Shown here: positions 21,656 through 34,245 of the stretch, piece by piece
Numbering within the stretch: the first letter of the stretch is position 1
How the letters are laid out: every line of letters begins with the position of its first letter
Source of the DNA: Erysipelotrichaceae bacterium
GTDB lineage: Bacteria > Bacillota_I > Bacilli_A > Erysipelotrichales > Erysipelotrichaceae
Direction of reading: 5' to 3'
DNA: 64,000 bases
Assembly (NCBI GenBank): GCA_017419165.1
Contig: JAFOLW010000048.1
Coordinates: 1-64,000 of the forward strand
Translations under genes and position numbers: made by a program
The notes under the pieces: model-generated
The model's input: the letters and a program-made list of their open reading frames with translations, nothing else
Database searches by the model: none
Told to the model about the DNA's origin: nothing

Positions 21656-23482
21656 ATGAAAAAGATCTTGATCAGATTCTTTATCCTGTTAGTCACCTTC
21701 ACATGTTTTTCTTATGCGATCTACTTTGAAAAGGATGAAGAAGAACACATCTTCCATGTCCATGTCCATGAAGTCTATGCGATCGCTCCCGGGGATGTGA
21801 TGGGGACCTGTCCGACAGAAGGCTGCGGCGGAACACTTGTTATTGTGGAAGCGATACAGCCGGAGAATTGCACGACACCGGGATTTTATTATGTGCAATG
21901 TAATAATTACTGCGGATATATGACGGAAGGGGAGATCCCGGCTCCCGGTCATTCCTACGTTTCTTCAACGATATCGGAAGCGACATGCACCAGAGAAGGA
22001 ACGATACGGCATACCTGTTCCGTCTGCGGAGCCAACTATGATTCTTCGACATCGGCTCTCGGCCATGACTACAGAGAAACGGTCGTGTCGGCCGCGACTT
22101 GTACAAGCAGCGGGCTTCTTTCTTATGAATGCAGCCGCTGCGGCGACTCCTACACCAGAGAGACTGCAGCTTTAGGTCATGATTACAGGTCCAAAGTGAC
22201 GAAAGAAGCCACTTGCACAGAGGACGGTGTGCGTACCTACACCTGCTCCAGATGTAACGACAGGTATACCCGCAAGATCGAAGCTCTCGGTCATGACATC
22301 GAATACGAAGAAAAGGAAGCGACCTGCACGGAAGCCGGCTACAAGAAAGGTGTCTGCAAGCGCTGTAAGGAAGAGATCAAAGAGGTCTATCCGGCTCTCG
22401 GTCATGACGTCAAGGAATACAAGAGGGTAAAAGAACCGACCTGCACGGAAGACGGAAGGCTCGAAGGCGTCTGTGAACGCTGCGGTGAGACGCAAAGCAG
22501 TGTATTGCCGAAGCTGGGTCACAAGTATCCGGAGGAATGGACCGTGGAGAAAGAGCCGACGTATTTTGCGGACGGTCTTGAGTATAAACTCTGTTCGGCC
22601 TGCGGCGACCGCATCGAACAGATCATACCGCACAAGGATCCCACACCGATCATCGTGGGAGGCGGCGGAGCAGCCGTTGCGGCGGCTGCCGGTATCTTCT
22701 TATATATGAAGAAGTTCTCCAAGCTCGCCAGGAAAGGCGAGAAAATGCCAAAGGAAAAGATCGAACAGGAATTCGAAGACAAGAGCGTCCTGTATTGCGG
22801 AAGCGATGAGAGTTTATTGAAGACGCTCAAGTCAAAGAAGTTTTTGGAAGTCACGACCTGTGAGAAAGAAGAGCTGGAAGAGACGGCGGCGGAAACGGAA
22901 GCGGATCTGCTGATCGTCGATGTGCATGATGACGAGAGTTTCGATGCGCTGATCCGGCTGAAAGATGAGACATTGCCGAAACAGACGATCGGCATCGTTG
23001 CCGGCGAGGAATACTACAAGGAAAACAAGGCGAAGCTCGATTCCTTCAAGGAAGACAAGACGATCCTCGATTATGTGAAGTTCGATGCGAGTGCCTATGA
23101 GATCCTGGTCAAACTGGTCCTGCCGGTACTGAAGCCGGATCTGAAATCGGATGAGGCTCTCACCAATATCGGTGCGGTGGCGGATGCCTTGGGCATCCCT
23201 GGCATCTCAACTCTGATCGATGTCTACGTCAACGGCAGAGACATCAAGGCGACGGTCGAAGAGGGAGAGCTTTCCGTAAGCTCGACGGCGACGGTCATCG
23301 CCGATATCGCTTCGATCCTGGGTCTGGATACGGTAGCCAGCGTGGCAGGCCTGGTGGATGATGTGGATTCCATCAAGGCGGCAGCGGACAAGGAGGCCGG
23401 CGCCAATGAGCGCAAGTACGGCGTGGAAGGTGCCAAGGATATCGTCGATGTCGTGTCCGACATCATAAACAAGGATGAATGA
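21656..23482 (+). CDS. Membrane protein with Cys-repeat ectodomain and receiver-like domain
   Basis: 608 residues. An N-terminal signal or anchor helix (about 4-24) and a His-rich stretch lead into six tandem repeats of about 37 residues, each of the form GHDY...ATCTEDG...TCSRCGD...AL; the sixth lacks its first Cys. A Gly/Ala-rich membrane helix follows near residues 337-357, then a cytoplasmic domain that looks like a response-regulator receiver (LLIVDVHDDES as the Asp strand, DYVKFDASAYEIL as the last strand) but lacks the usual acidic pair. The last 110 residues are unassigned, with Ala/Val/Asp-rich helices. GGGGGAAG-type ribosome site. Such Cys repeats occur on surface proteins of gut Firmicutes; combination with a receiver-like domain is unusual. 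Function unknown. Confidence 0.85.
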   Translation: MKKILIRFFILLVTFTCFSYAIYFEKDEEEHIFHVHVHEVYAIAPGDVMGTCPTEGCGGTLVIVEAIQPENCTTPGFYYVQCNNYCGYMTEGEIPAPGHSYVSSTISEATCTREGTIRHTCSVCGANYDSSTSALGHDYRETVVSAATCTSSGLLSYECSRCGDSYTRETAALGHDYRSKVTKEATCTEDGVRTYTCSRCNDRYTRKIEALGHDIEYEEKEATCTEAGYKKGVCKRCKEEIKEVYPALGHDVKEYKRVKEPTCTEDGRLEGVCERCGETQSSVLPKLGHKYPEEWTVEKEPTYFADGLEYKLCSACGDRIEQIIPHKDPTPIIVGGGGAAVAAAAGIFLYMKKFSKLARKGEKMPKEKIEQEFEDKSVLYCGSDESLLKTLKSKKFLEVTTCEKEELEETAAETEADLLIVDVHDDESFDALIRLKDETLPKQTIGIVAGEEYYKENKAKLDSFKEDKTILDYVKFDASAYEILVKLVLPVLKPDLKSDEALTNIGAVADALGIPGISTLIDVYVNGRDIKATVEEGELSVSSTATVIADIASILGLDTVASVAGLVDDVDSIKAAADKEAGANERKYGVEGAKDIVDVVSDIINKDE

Positions 23483-28996: not shown

Positions 28997-31036
28997 CTAT
29001 TGGTCGATATTGACAAATCCGCATTGCTTCAGTATGAATTCTTTGAGTTTATTGAAGAAGCCGTCGCCGTCACTGGTGTCGATGCGTCCGCTGAACAGTG
29101 TTACCGGCAAGAAGATCATGTCTTTGCGTTCTTCCCTGCTCAGGTCACCGATCGTGAACAGGACCTTCAGCGGGATGGCACCGGGATCCGCGTAGGATCC
29201 GCCGTATTCCTTGACCTTGGCGACCTTCGGTGTTTTGACGATGTCCAGGACCCTCGATCCGACCAGGACCCGGAAGGAGAAGGCGATGTCTCGCGAAGCG
29301 ATCTTGTCCGGCGTTCCTTCGAAGCATTTCAAGAATCTCTGCAGCAAGAGCTCGATCTCGTTGAAGTCGACTTTCCACAGGTTGGAACGGCGCTTGATCA
29401 GTTCGAGCAGTTCGACATATTCATACCAGGTCTCTTTGTTTCGCAGATCGGTGATCTTGGAAAGATCCCAGTTTTCCAGATAGAGATGGGAACCGATGGC
29501 CTGGATCTCATCGAGGATCTCACAGTTGTCGAAAAATTCGGAGAAGGCATACTGCAGTTCTTCGATCGAGACTTCTTTTTCACCGGTATCCAGATATAAG
29601 GAATGCAGGTAGTAGTTTTTCGGCCGGATATCGTCCGGCAGCAGTCCGCTGCATTGTAAGGTATTGGAGAAGACCGAATTGTAGAAGATGTCGATGAGCC
29701 TCTTGAGTTCGTGATTGAACGGCTTGTTCTGATCGAAGAGGCAGGAATGGACCGGATCCAGACCGCCGGTATCGCGGTCTTTGACGATGTAGTTGCGGTA
29801 GAAGAGGGAACGGCTGTAGTCGTCGACCTTGTCCTGGGCCTGGGTGCCGTTCATGTGGGTCTGGCAGAAGGACTGCATCGAGATGGTCTTGAGGGTCACC
29901 AGGAAAGCGTTGATGCGTTCCTGCGGGATGCCCATGGCTTTGGCCAGCAGGACGTTGGCGTCGTGGTCCATCGCCAGATTGGAACAGAAGCGAAGGAAAT
30001 AGCGTCCGTGCAGATCGATCGGCGAGGACCAGTTTTCTCTTATGCAGTAGACGGAGGTCTCTTCGCAGATGCCGTTCCATGCGTCGATGACTTCCTGGGT
30101 GGAGGAGCTCCGGCTCTTCTGGTGGATGAATGGAGTCATCTGGTCGTTGTTTAACAAGATCGTGAGCGATCCGTTCTGCAGCAGTTTGATGAATGCTTCC
30201 TTATCCTCACCTTCCGATAAAAGGAGTTCGGAAAAATAAGGATCGTAGAGGATCATGTTGAGCCTGACGATGACTTGTTTGTTGTGGAAGAAGGATAACG
30301 AGAAATTGCGTTTCTTGAACTGTTTCAGGTATTCTCTGACCTGCAGGGAATGAAAACCTTCTTTTTCGAATTCTTTATAATAGATGTCCTCCTCATCGTA
30401 AAAGATCTCCGGCAGCCATTGGTTGTCCAAGGCAAAGGGATAGACGGTGGACGGGGCCAGGTCGGCCGGGTAGACTTTGTAGTAGATGTTGTTGCCCGCA
30501 TTGTCAAAAGCTTTTTCCGGCAGGGAGTTCTGGTTGATGAAGCCGTTGTCTTCGTCGCTGCGGACCAGATAGGATCGGCTTTCTTCGATGCCTTTTTTGT
30601 TGATGGCGGAATAAAGTTTCTTCATCGCGTCGATCGTCACTTCGCCATAGGCACTGAGTTGTATGTACTGGTACTGCTGCAGGTGTTTTTTGATCGCTTC
30701 ACCGGTCTCGTCCTTGCGGAACCAGGACGGGTGGATCTGCCCGATGACGACGAAGAACAGACGGAAACGATCGACTCCTTCTTCTTCCATCCGTTTTAAG
30801 GAGATACTGAGTTCTCTCAGGACCTCATCCCGGCGGAGCGAGGATGAGGAAAGGATACCGAGGGTGACGTCGGCTTCGTTCAATGCGGTATCGATGTCGG
30901 CCGCCCACTTGTCTCCTAAAGAGAGGTTATTGGAGTCGATCCAGACATCGATGCCGTGACGTTTCAGGTAGCGGGCGATGCCGTTCGCACAGGCATGGTC
31001 CTGGTGGGAATAACTGATAAATACTTTTTCAGCCAT
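28997..31036 (-). CDS. TIR-domain protein with large unassigned C-terminal region
   Basis: 679 residues. The N-terminal 130 residues are a bacterial TIR domain: VFISYSHQDHACANGI, DVWIDSNNLSLGDKW, a LGILSSSS strand and the probable catalytic Glu75 in VLREL. Bacterial TIR domains cleave NAD and often make cyclic ADP-ribose signals for immunity. The remaining 540 residues match nothing I recognise; they are acidic and aromatic-rich without membrane helices or a signal peptide, and could be a sensor. GGAGG precedes the ATG. It is divergent from a membrane RyR-domain gene with 148 bases between them, suggesting one module. A defence role is inferred, not shown. Confidence 0.85.
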   Translation of the reverse strand: MAEKVFISYSHQDHACANGIARYLKRHGIDVWIDSNNLSLGDKWAADIDTALNEADVTLGILSSSSLRRDEVLRELSISLKRMEEEGVDRFRLFFVVIGQIHPSWFRKDETGEAIKKHLQQYQYIQLSAYGEVTIDAMKKLYSAINKKGIEESRSYLVRSDEDNGFINQNSLPEKAFDNAGNNIYYKVYPADLAPSTVYPFALDNQWLPEIFYDEEDIYYKEFEKEGFHSLQVREYLKQFKKRNFSLSFFHNKQVIVRLNMILYDPYFSELLLSEGEDKEAFIKLLQNGSLTILLNNDQMTPFIHQKSRSSSTQEVIDAWNGICEETSVYCIRENWSSPIDLHGRYFLRFCSNLAMDHDANVLLAKAMGIPQERINAFLVTLKTISMQSFCQTHMNGTQAQDKVDDYSRSLFYRNYIVKDRDTGGLDPVHSCLFDQNKPFNHELKRLIDIFYNSVFSNTLQCSGLLPDDIRPKNYYLHSLYLDTGEKEVSIEELQYAFSEFFDNCEILDEIQAIGSHLYLENWDLSKITDLRNKETWYEYVELLELIKRRSNLWKVDFNEIELLLQRFLKCFEGTPDKIASRDIAFSFRVLVGSRVLDIVKTPKVAKVKEYGGSYADPGAIPLKVLFTIGDLSREERKDMIFLPVTLFSGRIDTSDGDGFFNKLKEFILKQCGFVNIDQ

Positions 31037-31077
31037 AGGTCCTCCGTGAATGATCTTTACATATATCTTATACGTTC

Positions 31078-31144
31078 ATTATAAGCGATAAGTCTCATAA
31101 ATTTGCAGGGCATATCCTTTAGAGAAATGGGCTTCATGTATAAT
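31078..31144. promoter_or_regulatory. Divergent promoters of the TIR and RyR genes
   Basis: A minus-strand TATAAT at 31078-31083 can serve the TIR gene and a plus-strand TATAAT at 31139-31144 the RyR gene. Neither has a good -35 hexamer at normal spacing. The two boxes are 55 bases apart, so a single regulator could control both. No inverted repeat stands out. Confidence 0.55.
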
Positions 31145-31184
31145 GAAGTCAAAGAAGCTAACAGTTTCGGAAAGGAGATCATCG

Positions 31185-32996
31185 ATGTCACTTGTCATTT
31201 TTGCGGCTTTACTGGTATGTGTTGGGGGTATCATCAAGGCATACAGAGACCGTGCCGATATACAGAAAGCATCTCTGACCATGACCGCTGCCATTTCTTT
31301 GGCGATCTCCATCCTGGTCTTTCCTTATTATCTGAAAAGCAGTGACTTGCTCATAGCGGTCATCGAAGCTTTTCATGCGGGCGTTTCGGGCATCGCACTG
31401 AGCGTCAACGGCGATATCCCTTATGAACTGGAACTGAGCGAAGCACAGCTGAAGATCTACCGTTTCTTCTTATACAATCTCTATATCTTCGGGCCGATCG
31501 CCGGTTCGATGTTTCTGATCACGTTCTCCGCCAACGTGAAGAACGCCTTGTCTTTTTTCGGTCAGAAGAAGTACTATGTCTTTTCGACGCTGAACGATCA
31601 GAGCATCGCGATCGCCGAAAGCATCTTTGACAAGAAGACCGGCAGCAAGTTCATCTTCTGTAATGTCGATGAGCCTGAGATCGATCTGGCCAACCGCGTC
31701 CGCGGAGTCCATGGGATCATGCTGAAGATCGGTGAACACGAACTGAAACTGAGAAAAAACAAGAAATACGAATTCTTTGAGATCTACGAGGAAGACAAGA
31801 AGCGCATCACGGCGACGGCAAAGCTGTGCGAAGAGCTTCCCAAAAAGAAGAATTATGACGATGAGAACATCATCGTGCGCATCTTTGCGGATGCTTCGCA
31901 AAGAGAACTGATCCTCAACCTGGATGAGCAGTATTCCGAAGAACTTTACCTGCGTCATATCGATGAGGACCGCAGCCTGGCTCTGGAAGTCCTGTCGCTG
32001 GCAAAGGAAGATCTCTGCAGGAAGAAGGGGAATCACACGGCGATCCTCTGCGACTCTGCTTTGGGCATCACCTTGCTGAAAGACCTCTTGTGTCTGAGCG
32101 TGAGCGATGAAGAATATTCGATCACTCTGATCTCGCCGGATGCAGAAGCCTTCCGGGACGATCTCATGAAACAGGTACCGGAGTTTGAGCAGTATGCCGT
32201 CGACTTTATCGAACGGTCCTACGGAAGTGAAGCTTCGGCATTTGAAAAAGGAAAGGACTATGACTGCATCTTCGTCTTGTATGAAGACGATGAGCTTGCC
32301 TATAAGACGGCCGTGCAGATCCGCCGGGTCTTAAGTTCCTTCAGTGCACAGCTGAAGTGTCCGAAGATCTTGTGCTACGTAAGCGATCCGAGCCTGCACA
32401 AGATCATCAAGGAAGAGGAGATCGTGCTTTTCGGCGATCTGGAAAAGATGTGCAGCTACGACGTCCTGGTCAATCCGGGTCTGGAGAAGGCGGCGGAAAA
32501 AGTCCATCTGTCGTATCTCGGTATGGAGAAAGCGGATGAGGATGTTCTGGAGAACAGCGGTTTCTATGAGTACCAGAATCAGGAGTCTTCTTTTGCGGAG
32601 GCACTGGCTCTTGAATACAAGAAGGCTTACATCCTTTCGCAGAAAAAAGACGCTCAGGTATCCGACAGGGACTTCATCGATGCCTGGCTGGCGGAACACC
32701 TGGAAGAAGCGGCGGCCTGGGAACATGAACGCTGGAATGCCTACCAGAGGATCCACGGCTGGCGGAAGGCGGAGGGAGAAATGATCGGTTCGATCATCGA
32801 AAAATACAAGGGCGAACGGGCCAACGATCCCAAGCTGCGCTTACATCCGGCGATCGTCGACTATGGGGATCTTGAAAACGTTCAGAACGAAGTCAACGAG
32901 TGTTTCAAAAGATACGGCTCAGACAAGCGCGTGGATTACCTCGGTGCAGATAAGGACATCCTGAAGAAGATGACCTGGATCCTGGATGTGAAATAG
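31185..32996 (+). CDS. Membrane protein with Rossmann-like domains and C-terminal RyR domain
   Basis: 603 residues. Three or four membrane helices occupy about 1-115. A TrkA-N/Rossmann-like segment follows (KKYYVFSTLNDQSIAIAES, about 125-190), then a second such unit (NHTAILCDSALGITLLKDLL). The end carries a RyR-type domain, with HERWNAYQRIHGWR at 514 onward and LRLHPAIVDYGDL near 552. RyR domains are predicted nucleotide-binding modules in bacterial conflict systems. The likely form is a membrane effector or channel gated by a nucleotide. AAAGGAG lies 8 bases before the ATG at 31185; the earlier ATG at 31143 overlaps the -10 box. It pairs with the divergent TIR gene. Confidence 0.85.
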   Translation: MSLVIFAALLVCVGGIIKAYRDRADIQKASLTMTAAISLAISILVFPYYLKSSDLLIAVIEAFHAGVSGIALSVNGDIPYELELSEAQLKIYRFFLYNLYIFGPIAGSMFLITFSANVKNALSFFGQKKYYVFSTLNDQSIAIAESIFDKKTGSKFIFCNVDEPEIDLANRVRGVHGIMLKIGEHELKLRKNKKYEFFEIYEEDKKRITATAKLCEELPKKKNYDDENIIVRIFADASQRELILNLDEQYSEELYLRHIDEDRSLALEVLSLAKEDLCRKKGNHTAILCDSALGITLLKDLLCLSVSDEEYSITLISPDAEAFRDDLMKQVPEFEQYAVDFIERSYGSEASAFEKGKDYDCIFVLYEDDELAYKTAVQIRRVLSSFSAQLKCPKILCYVSDPSLHKIIKEEEIVLFGDLEKMCSYDVLVNPGLEKAAEKVHLSYLGMEKADEDVLENSGFYEYQNQESSFAEALALEYKKAYILSQKKDAQVSDRDFIDAWLAEHLEEAAAWEHERWNAYQRIHGWRKAEGEMIGSIIEKYKGERANDPKLRLHPAIVDYGDLENVQNEVNECFKRYGSDKRVDYLGADKDILKKMTWILDVK

Positions 32997-33111: not shown

Positions 33112-34245
33112 ATGGATCGTGAGGATATGAAAAGATCCGGACCTTTTTTTGATGTCCGGGAGCTGAACCATGAGATGCGCACACCGCTGAGCAGCATCCT
33201 TCTGCTGAGCAGGGATCTGAAGAAGGAAAGATCGCTGAAAACAAGGACGAAAGCCGTTCAGATCGAACGTTCCGCCCGTCATCTGCTCGATCTGGTCAAC
33301 AATGTACTGGATCTGAACAGGATCGAAGACGGAAGCTGTGAACTTCATGAAGAGCGTTTCGATCTGAAGGAACTGATGAACGATCTGAAGTTCCTGATCC
33401 TTCCTCTGACAAAAGAGAAGAAGATCCGCTTTACGGTCAGGGATGAGACTGAAAGCTTCGCTTATGAAGGCGATGTCTTGAAGCTGAAGCAGGTCCTGAT
33501 CAATGTCCTGGGCAATGCGGTCAGGTATACGCCGCGGAAAGGAAGCGTTCATTTCATTGCCAAGGCAATGAAAAAGGAAGAAGAATGCGATCTGCTTCAT
33601 TTCGAGATCACAGACAGCGGCGAAGGGATCGCGGAAGACCTCCTCCCGCGGATCTTTGAAGCTTATGCGACGGAAAAAGAACGGATCGGTTCTTCGGGAC
33701 CGGGCTTGTATATCACAAAGCGTTATCTCGATCTGATGAACGGAAAGATCGAGATCTTCAGTAAAAAATGGAAGGGAACAAAAGTCGTCATCGAAGTTCC
33801 TTTGAAAAGAGGGAGAGAGGAAAAGAAGCAAGATGTAAAAGGACCGTCTTTCGATCTGAGGGGGATCAAGGTCCTGATCGCGGAAGATGTGGTGATCAAT
33901 GCGCGGATCCTGGAGAATCTGTTACGGTCTTATGGGGCCGTGACGCAGATCGCCGAAAACGGAGAAAGGGCTCTGGAGATCTTCTCTCATAGTCCGGTCA
34001 ACGGATTTGACGTATTGCTGCTGGACGTGCATATGCCGTTGCTGGACGGAAGGCAGGTCACGGAGAGGATACGGCAAAGTCAGCGGGCAGACAGGGACGT
34101 GGGGATCATCGCATTGAGCGGGGACAGTTCGGGAAAGGACATCAGGGACAGCCTCGATGCGGGAATGGATGTTCATTTATGCAAACCGGTCGATCCGGAT
34201 CTGCTGATAAAGACGATAAAAGATCTGATAAAAAATAAAGACTGA
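33112..34245 (+). CDS. Soluble hybrid histidine kinase-response regulator
   Basis: 377 residues. The phosphorylated His20 lies in LNHEMRTPLSS at the very N-terminus. The ATP-binding part has the N box (INVLGNAVRYTP), the DSGEGIAEDL G1 box and SSGPGLYITKRYLDLM. From about 250 a receiver domain follows (KVLIAEDVVINARI, LLLDVHMPLLDG with the phosphoacceptor Asp, ALSGDSS, HLCKPVDPDLL). There is no sensor, membrane or PAS domain, and no partner gene, so the input is unknown. A TATAAT is at 33059-33064. The ribosome site is weak. Confidence 0.92.
   Translation: MDREDMKRSGPFFDVRELNHEMRTPLSSILLLSRDLKKERSLKTRTKAVQIERSARHLLDLVNNVLDLNRIEDGSCELHEERFDLKELMNDLKFLILPLTKEKKIRFTVRDETESFAYEGDVLKLKQVLINVLGNAVRYTPRKGSVHFIAKAMKKEEECDLLHFEITDSGEGIAEDLLPRIFEAYATEKERIGSSGPGLYITKRYLDLMNGKIEIFSKKWKGTKVVIEVPLKRGREEKKQDVKGPSFDLRGIKVLIAEDVVINARILENLLRSYGAVTQIAENGERALEIFSHSPVNGFDVLLLDVHMPLLDGRQVTERIRQSQRADRDVGIIALSGDSSGKDIRDSLDAGMDVHLCKPVDPDLLIKTIKDLIKNKD

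Follow-up and report, generated by a model that had tools for sequence, protein, structure and literature searches.

A TIR-domain protein with a conserved orphan region, paired with a predicted RCK channel carrying a ryanodine receptor-like domain in a genus of Erysipelotrichaceae

The TIR gene and its divergent neighbour

The locus described here lies in a window of 64,000 nucleotides, by which we mean the whole stretch of DNA analysed (positions 1 to 64,000 of contig JAFOLW010000048.1, assembly GCA_017419165.1, Erysipelotrichaceae bacterium). It is made up of a TIR gene and a membrane-protein gene that are arranged head to head and flanked by metabolic genes (Table 1). The TIR gene starts at an ATG at position 31036 with a ribosome-binding-like GGAGGA upstream, and the start of the partner gene was set at the ATG at 31185 rather than at 31143, with the ribosome-binding-like AAAGGAGA upstream. 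Residues of the partner are numbered throughout on the 603-residue protein that begins at 31185, the alternative being an open reading frame of 617 residues. A simple scan of the upstream region shared by both genes gave no sigma-70-like site.

Table 1. Features of the TIR–channel locus in window coordinates
Feature	Position	Strand	Basis
TIR gene	28997..31036	-	open reading frame of 679 residues, TIR_2 match
Orphan region, residues 140-679 (proposed trigger and oligomerisation module)	29000..30619	-	matchless in libraries; conserved
TIR domain, residues 5-129	30650..31024	-	TIR_2, E 8.9e-20
E75 codon, likely catalytic glutamate of the TIR domain	30812..30814	-	alignment with BtTir
Divergent upstream region shared by both genes	31037..31184	.	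sequence
Partner gene, 603 residues (predicted membrane helices, RCK gating ring, RyR-like domain)	31185..32996	+	structure model, structural matches
Membrane part, residues 1-122	31185..31550	+	hydropathy and model
Two RCK-type Rossmann domains, residues 128-431	31566..32477	+	VIA-align matches
RyR-like domain, residues 484-603	32634..32993	+	PF02026 in relatives, PDB profile matches
RyR pocket codons H514, W517, H554	32724..32846	+	invariant; align with RyDEP H75, W78, H100

Two further genes of the window deserve mention. A hybrid histidine kinase-receiver gene (33112-34245, + strand) stands beside the channel gene; its product is 43-54% identical in two related genomes, the adjoining glycogen synthase 91-93%. 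At 21656-23482 (+ strand) the window encodes an exported protein of 608 residues. It contains Cys-rich repeats of the form ATCTEDGxxTYTCSRC and a membrane helix, its cytosolic part is receiver-like, and its relatives abut the TIR gene in convergent orientation in about nine species. This surface protein was considered as a third component and set aside because many genomes that lack the TIR gene carry it.

The TIR domain itself matches the TIR domains of SPARTA, SARM1 and AbTir in structure (Z 12-14), and its E75 lines up with the Glu of BtTir (7uxr) and is nearly invariant among the relatives. With a TIR domain and this predicted catalytic Glu, the protein would fit among the TIR-domain NADases. 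A weak NCBIfam match to ThcB4 and all PADLOC matches of the 679-residue protein cover the TIR part only.

A conserved region that matches nothing in the libraries

Residues 140-679 gave nothing beyond chance in Pfam, NCBIfam, PADLOC, PHROGs or the PDB sequences, and no convincing relative from outside the genus was found among plasmids, phages, viral contigs and sampled genomes (392 at the level of the phylum, 272 of the family and 294 of the order), which confines the region to one genus in the collections searched. AlphaFold2, run on the full TIR protein with a shallow alignment, returned a weak model (pLDDT 57) in which the orphan region has a mixed alpha/beta make-up, including a segment of five strands close to the C terminus. 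Structural matches to this model in the PDB (Foldseek, VIA) cover essentially residues 1-149 only, and a viral structure library yielded weak matches only, none of them credible for the orphan region.

A first-pass annotation made from the sequence had described this region as free of membrane helices and recognised motifs, and both statements hold, as hydropathy shows zero hydrophobic segments and the Walker A, HExxH and GxSxG motifs are all absent. It had also ascribed to the region a conserved aromatic, acidic and helical style; the conservation is confirmed below, and aromatic residues make up 13% of the region, acidic ones 15% and basic ones 11.5%, while the helical character is borne out only partly by the mixed alpha/beta model. 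The folds it had put forward as candidates, namely STAND, WD40 or protease, left no such signature in profile searches, motif scans or the weak model. The P-loop NTPase of a STAND/NLR sensor was missing, with neither a Walker A motif nor a NACHT or AAA match, and scans for protease or ATPase motifs came back negative. WD40 or propeller repeats left no Pfam match in this weakly modelled region, and hhalign gave a probability of 0.3% for kinship to the TIR-propeller protein of a sister system. A housekeeping enzyme domain, named beforehand as the finding that would remove the sensor idea, was likewise not found in residues 140-679.

The conservation of the region was assessed in an alignment of 17 full-length or near-full-length TIR proteins from a single genus, including that of the window, the relatives being drawn from gut and rumen Erysipelotrichaceae metagenome assemblies. 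One further genome (G009), in which the TIR gene is a fragment of 98 residues at a contig end, stands outside these 17. The relatives are 59-82% identical to the window protein, with a mean column identity of 76%, and pairwise dN of about 0.13-0.31 at dS of about 1 to saturated is similar in the TIR and the C-terminal part. Residues 140-679 are thus real protein under strong purifying selection, with a constraint like that of the TIR domain. The best-conserved stretch of the region spans residues ~383-418, and a polar stretch, QTHMNGT...VDDYSRS, is invariant. Across the relatives, dN/dS revealed no diversification of residues 140-679, which are constrained no less than the catalytic domain. 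This favours a conserved cue, or one from inside the host, over a fast-evolving phage protein. The earlier suggestion of phage-part recognition sits poorly with this constraint if those parts evolve fast, and no phage link of the locus was found.

Strict conservation without diversification, together with the metabolic flanks and a polar invariant stretch that might serve catalysis or binding, would also be in keeping with residues 140-679 forming an additional enzyme or a signalling domain with a housekeeping task, in which case the gene pair would regulate some ordinary process, envelope or ion homeostasis for example, and have no part in defence. We regard this as rather unlikely, given that an enzyme family match is absent, that the TIR gene is patchily present (18 of 36 genomes of the genus, a patchiness that stems partly from assembly completeness) and that unrelated modules occupy the same position in the sister systems described below.

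The partner protein and its RyR-like pocket

The partner was modelled at a pLDDT of 78.9 and a pTM of 0.71 as a membrane part, a pair of RCK-type domains and, thirdly, a helical C-terminal domain. Membrane helices are placed at residues 2-21, 26-52 and 86-122, and a short helix at residues 55-67 could be a pore helix; model confidence is low at residues 70-81 and 106-122 and low in the pore as well. Inspection of the alignment, in this poorly modelled pore, did not show a canonical TVGYG-type K+ filter; the last two membrane helices are joined by a loop of sequence SGIALSVNGD. The best structural match of the partner is the gating ring of plant DMI1 (Z 17.5 over 312 residues, 4.0 Å), with the CASTOR gating ring close to it (Z 17.2) and also first in Foldseek (E 1.8e-3). 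TrkA, KtrA, GsuK, Slo1 and MthK matched as well, and the GsuK alignment extends into the membrane part. As judged from the model, the partner adopts an RCK-ring fold and would possess an RCK-channel architecture with the gating ring behind a membrane pore domain. It shares with these RCK-gated channels and transporters the predicted gating ring behind a short membrane part, but differs from them in an identity of only ~10%, in the canonical K+ filter that is not seen and in the added RyR-like domain. Scans with Pfam, NCBIfam and PADLOC found neither a SIR2-SLOG nor a TM-macro arrangement in the partner.

The assignment of the C-terminal domain as RyR-like draws on the relatives: PF02026 matches occur in 7 of 16 channel relatives (best E 3.7e-5), while the window protein itself has none, and the channel of contig L048 scores 17.2 bits against a curated cut-off of 27.4 bits. 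A profile of the domain found the ryanodine receptors RyR1 and RyR3 as best PDB matches, albeit weakly (E 0.04 and up). RyR structures are missing among the VIA matches listed for the partner because the RCK ring fills that list. The partner resembles the animal ryanodine receptors in that an apparent ion channel bears a domain of the RyR repeat type, but it is a small RCK-type protein that is comparable to them in the RyR repeat only. A RyR-like stretch was also observed in a protein kinase-like protein of 1301 residues, which is followed by a RyR protein of 96 residues (L055:6620-10817).

In the phage protein RyDEP, residues H75, W78, H100 and D117 hold 3'cADPR, and D117 is the catalytic acid (PMC13232231). 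Its His, Trp and His recur in the partner as H514, W517 and H554 (528, 531 and 568 in the numbering of the 617-residue reading frame). Plain bacterial RyR proteins show the same pocket offsets as RyDEP (+3, +25, +17), and the window pocket keeps the order and offsets apart from an insert of 15 residues. Unlike RyDEP, the partner belongs to the host, and its RyR-like domain is joined to membrane and RCK segments. Across 15 divergent channel proteins, E513, H514, W517, G525 and H554 are the only invariant columns, and in a second alignment, of 14 channels, this cluster recurs with 13 or 14 of 14 members agreeing at each column, joined by D369 of the RCK part. Since the H/W/H triad matches that of RyDEP, the pocket fits a predicted ADPR-type ligand site. 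D603 of the 617-residue frame, an Asp in 12 of 14 members, was considered as a fourth pocket residue and rejected on its offsets relative to the plain bacterial RyR proteins. The position of D117 is occupied by Asn in all 11 members of the window clade and by Asp in all five of the sister clade. As D117 is the catalytic acid of RyDEP, an Asn here would suit a receptor that binds its ligand without cleaving it.

Phage RyR proteins act on cADPR signals, which they degrade or sequester, and a divergently expressed partner could serve as a safety device, so that the RyR membrane protein might restrain the TIR system, by binding or removing the messenger or by guarding against leak, instead of being its effector. 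We hold this to be quite improbable: the window clade bears Asn in place of the catalytic acid, and the membrane part and gating ring exceed the needs of a sponge.

Linkage of the channel family to TIR genes

Within the genus, the TIR gene and the channel gene stand head to head in 11 species, with outer flanks that are mostly different. A clade of TIR genes at 62% identity lacks the adjoining channel, which is found elsewhere in the genome in five of seven such cases, and co-occurrence of the two genes within the genus persists where they are unlinked (5/2/1/17; p 0.002 with phylogeny disregarded). One assembly holds the TIR gene on two contigs (L040, L041) whose flanking genes agree on one side, apparently a duplicate from the assembly or from a second strain. 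A channel of 34-38% identity adjoins a TIR-TM protein of ~1030 residues in four further species of the genus; a fifth contig has the same channel type without such a neighbour and a sixth ends at the channel gene. These ~1030-residue proteins (L048:4873-7980, L050:9622-12726 and relatives), which lie beside the RyR channel, place a membrane helix after the TIR, ahead of a long C-terminal domain that is read as beta-propeller-like because a relative on L054 weakly matches propeller models; their layout is Toll-like, with the sensor possibly outside the cell.

Outside the genus the channel family was found at nine loci, with TIR genes near five and SIR2 genes near one. The channel is near TIR-propeller and TIR-TPR genes in G057, near a TIR-NACHT/NPHP3-TPR-APH gene in G316 and near a TIR-methyltransferase gene in G360; one TIR gene is near it in G334 and two in G410, SIR2_2 genes flank it in G324, and at the remaining three loci (G387, G393, G427) no TIR or SIR2 gene is near. 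By chance, ~0.25 loci with a TIR gene within 7 kb would be expected against the five observed (P about 1e-6), a value that overstates the case as the distance was picked post hoc and defence genes cluster anyway. L081:626-5478 holds a relative of the RyR channel with two adjoining SIR2_2 genes and an in-frame stop near the channel start. At L082:4325-16001 and L100:603-11000, channel relatives lie in larger clusters together with small RyR proteins, TIR genes and a ParA-like gene; these are possibly multi-gene islands around RyR and TIR.

The C-terminal modules of these partner TIR proteins appear unrelated, as expected of swappable triggers. Beta-propellers, TPR and NACHT-TPR arrays are typical sensing and oligomerisation modules. 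A trigger role of residues 140-679 is plausible by analogy, because the TIR partners of channels of the same family carry a propeller, TPR or NACHT-TPR at this place. The sensor idea of the first-pass annotation retains support from these sister proteins; the missing diversification counts against a sensor that simply recognises a rapidly evolving phage part.

Single-gene TIR NADases are known, for instance SpbK (PMC12847820), and six or seven genomes of the genus have the TIR gene without an adjoining channel. The TIR protein might hence act alone as an abortive-infection NADase, its C-terminal region sensing a phage part and NAD+ being drained, with the channel separate or merely co-regulated. 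It would resemble SpbK in a TIR with an extra region that possibly senses a phage part, but this region is unrelated by sequence to that of SpbK as far as tested, and a conserved partner gene is present here. The head-to-head pair kept across species, the linkage of channel relatives to other TIR and SIR2 genes, the predicted ADPR-type pocket of the channel and its presence elsewhere in most unlinked genomes make us judge this alternative unlikely.

Because of the anatomy of both proteins and the linkage of the channel family to TIR and SIR2 genes, we favour a Thoeris-like reading, to which we give just short of an even chance. In this reading the TIR protein and the divergent RyR channel act together as a two-gene module of nucleotide signalling, which most likely serves anti-phage defence. 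The 540-residue C-terminal region would hold the TIR domain off until its cue is met and would also mediate oligomerisation. Once released, the TIR domain would cleave NAD+ to a messenger of the ADP-ribose type (probably one of the cyclic ADPR isomers), which would bind the RyR-like pocket of the partner; the RCK gating ring would then open the membrane pore, and the cell would be depolarised or arrested. Messenger, binding, channel opening, cue and defence role are all inferred from anatomy and linkage. Counted against the module are the unlinked clade, the three of nine loci without TIR or SIR2 genes, the missing canonical K+ filter and the low confidence of the pore, and furthermore the window RyR domain without a PF02026 match, the lack of diversification, the metabolic flanks and the absent phage link. 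That TIR-made cyclic ADP-ribose directly opens the RyR-domain channel, as a prokaryotic parallel to the disputed cADPR-ryanodine receptor axis of animals, in a modular system whose 540-residue region is an undescribed sensor fold replaced by propellers, TPR or NACHT modules in the sister systems, is possible but in our estimation doubtful.

In Thoeris, ThsB makes a signal that is read by the SLOG domain of ThsA or, in type II, by a macro domain. The present pair resembles both types as a two-gene module of a TIR enzyme and a protein with an ADPR-type ligand domain, and type II also in its membrane-bound effector. It is neither type I nor type II, because the partner lacks SIR2-SLOG and TM-macro and instead has an RCK ring and a RyR-like domain; moreover, the TIR protein carries the 540-residue extra region, and the messenger is proposed only. 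Of Thoeris types III to VI, the weak ThcB4 match of the TIR part was the only sign; these later types are reportedly covered by a 2025 preprint by Yirmiya, so TIR-RyR pairs may already have been described, and Burroughs, Aravind and colleagues are said to have discussed RyR domains in nucleotide-based conflict systems in 2015. In the literature searched, the only link of RyR domains to TIR signalling found was that for the phage proteins (PMC13232231).

The recurring TIR-plus-RyR-channel module is the larger result of this analysis and would be a new form of TIR nucleotide signalling. If the proposed mechanism is true, an ion channel would join the effectors of such signalling, with a RyR-type domain as receptor, which would be in line with the RyR-domain signal sponges that phages carry, and the orphan region would gain a testable role. 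The pair would furthermore provide a small bacterial system for testing whether cADPR isomers gate channels with a RyR domain, which PMC13232231 leaves unanswered for the animal RyRs.
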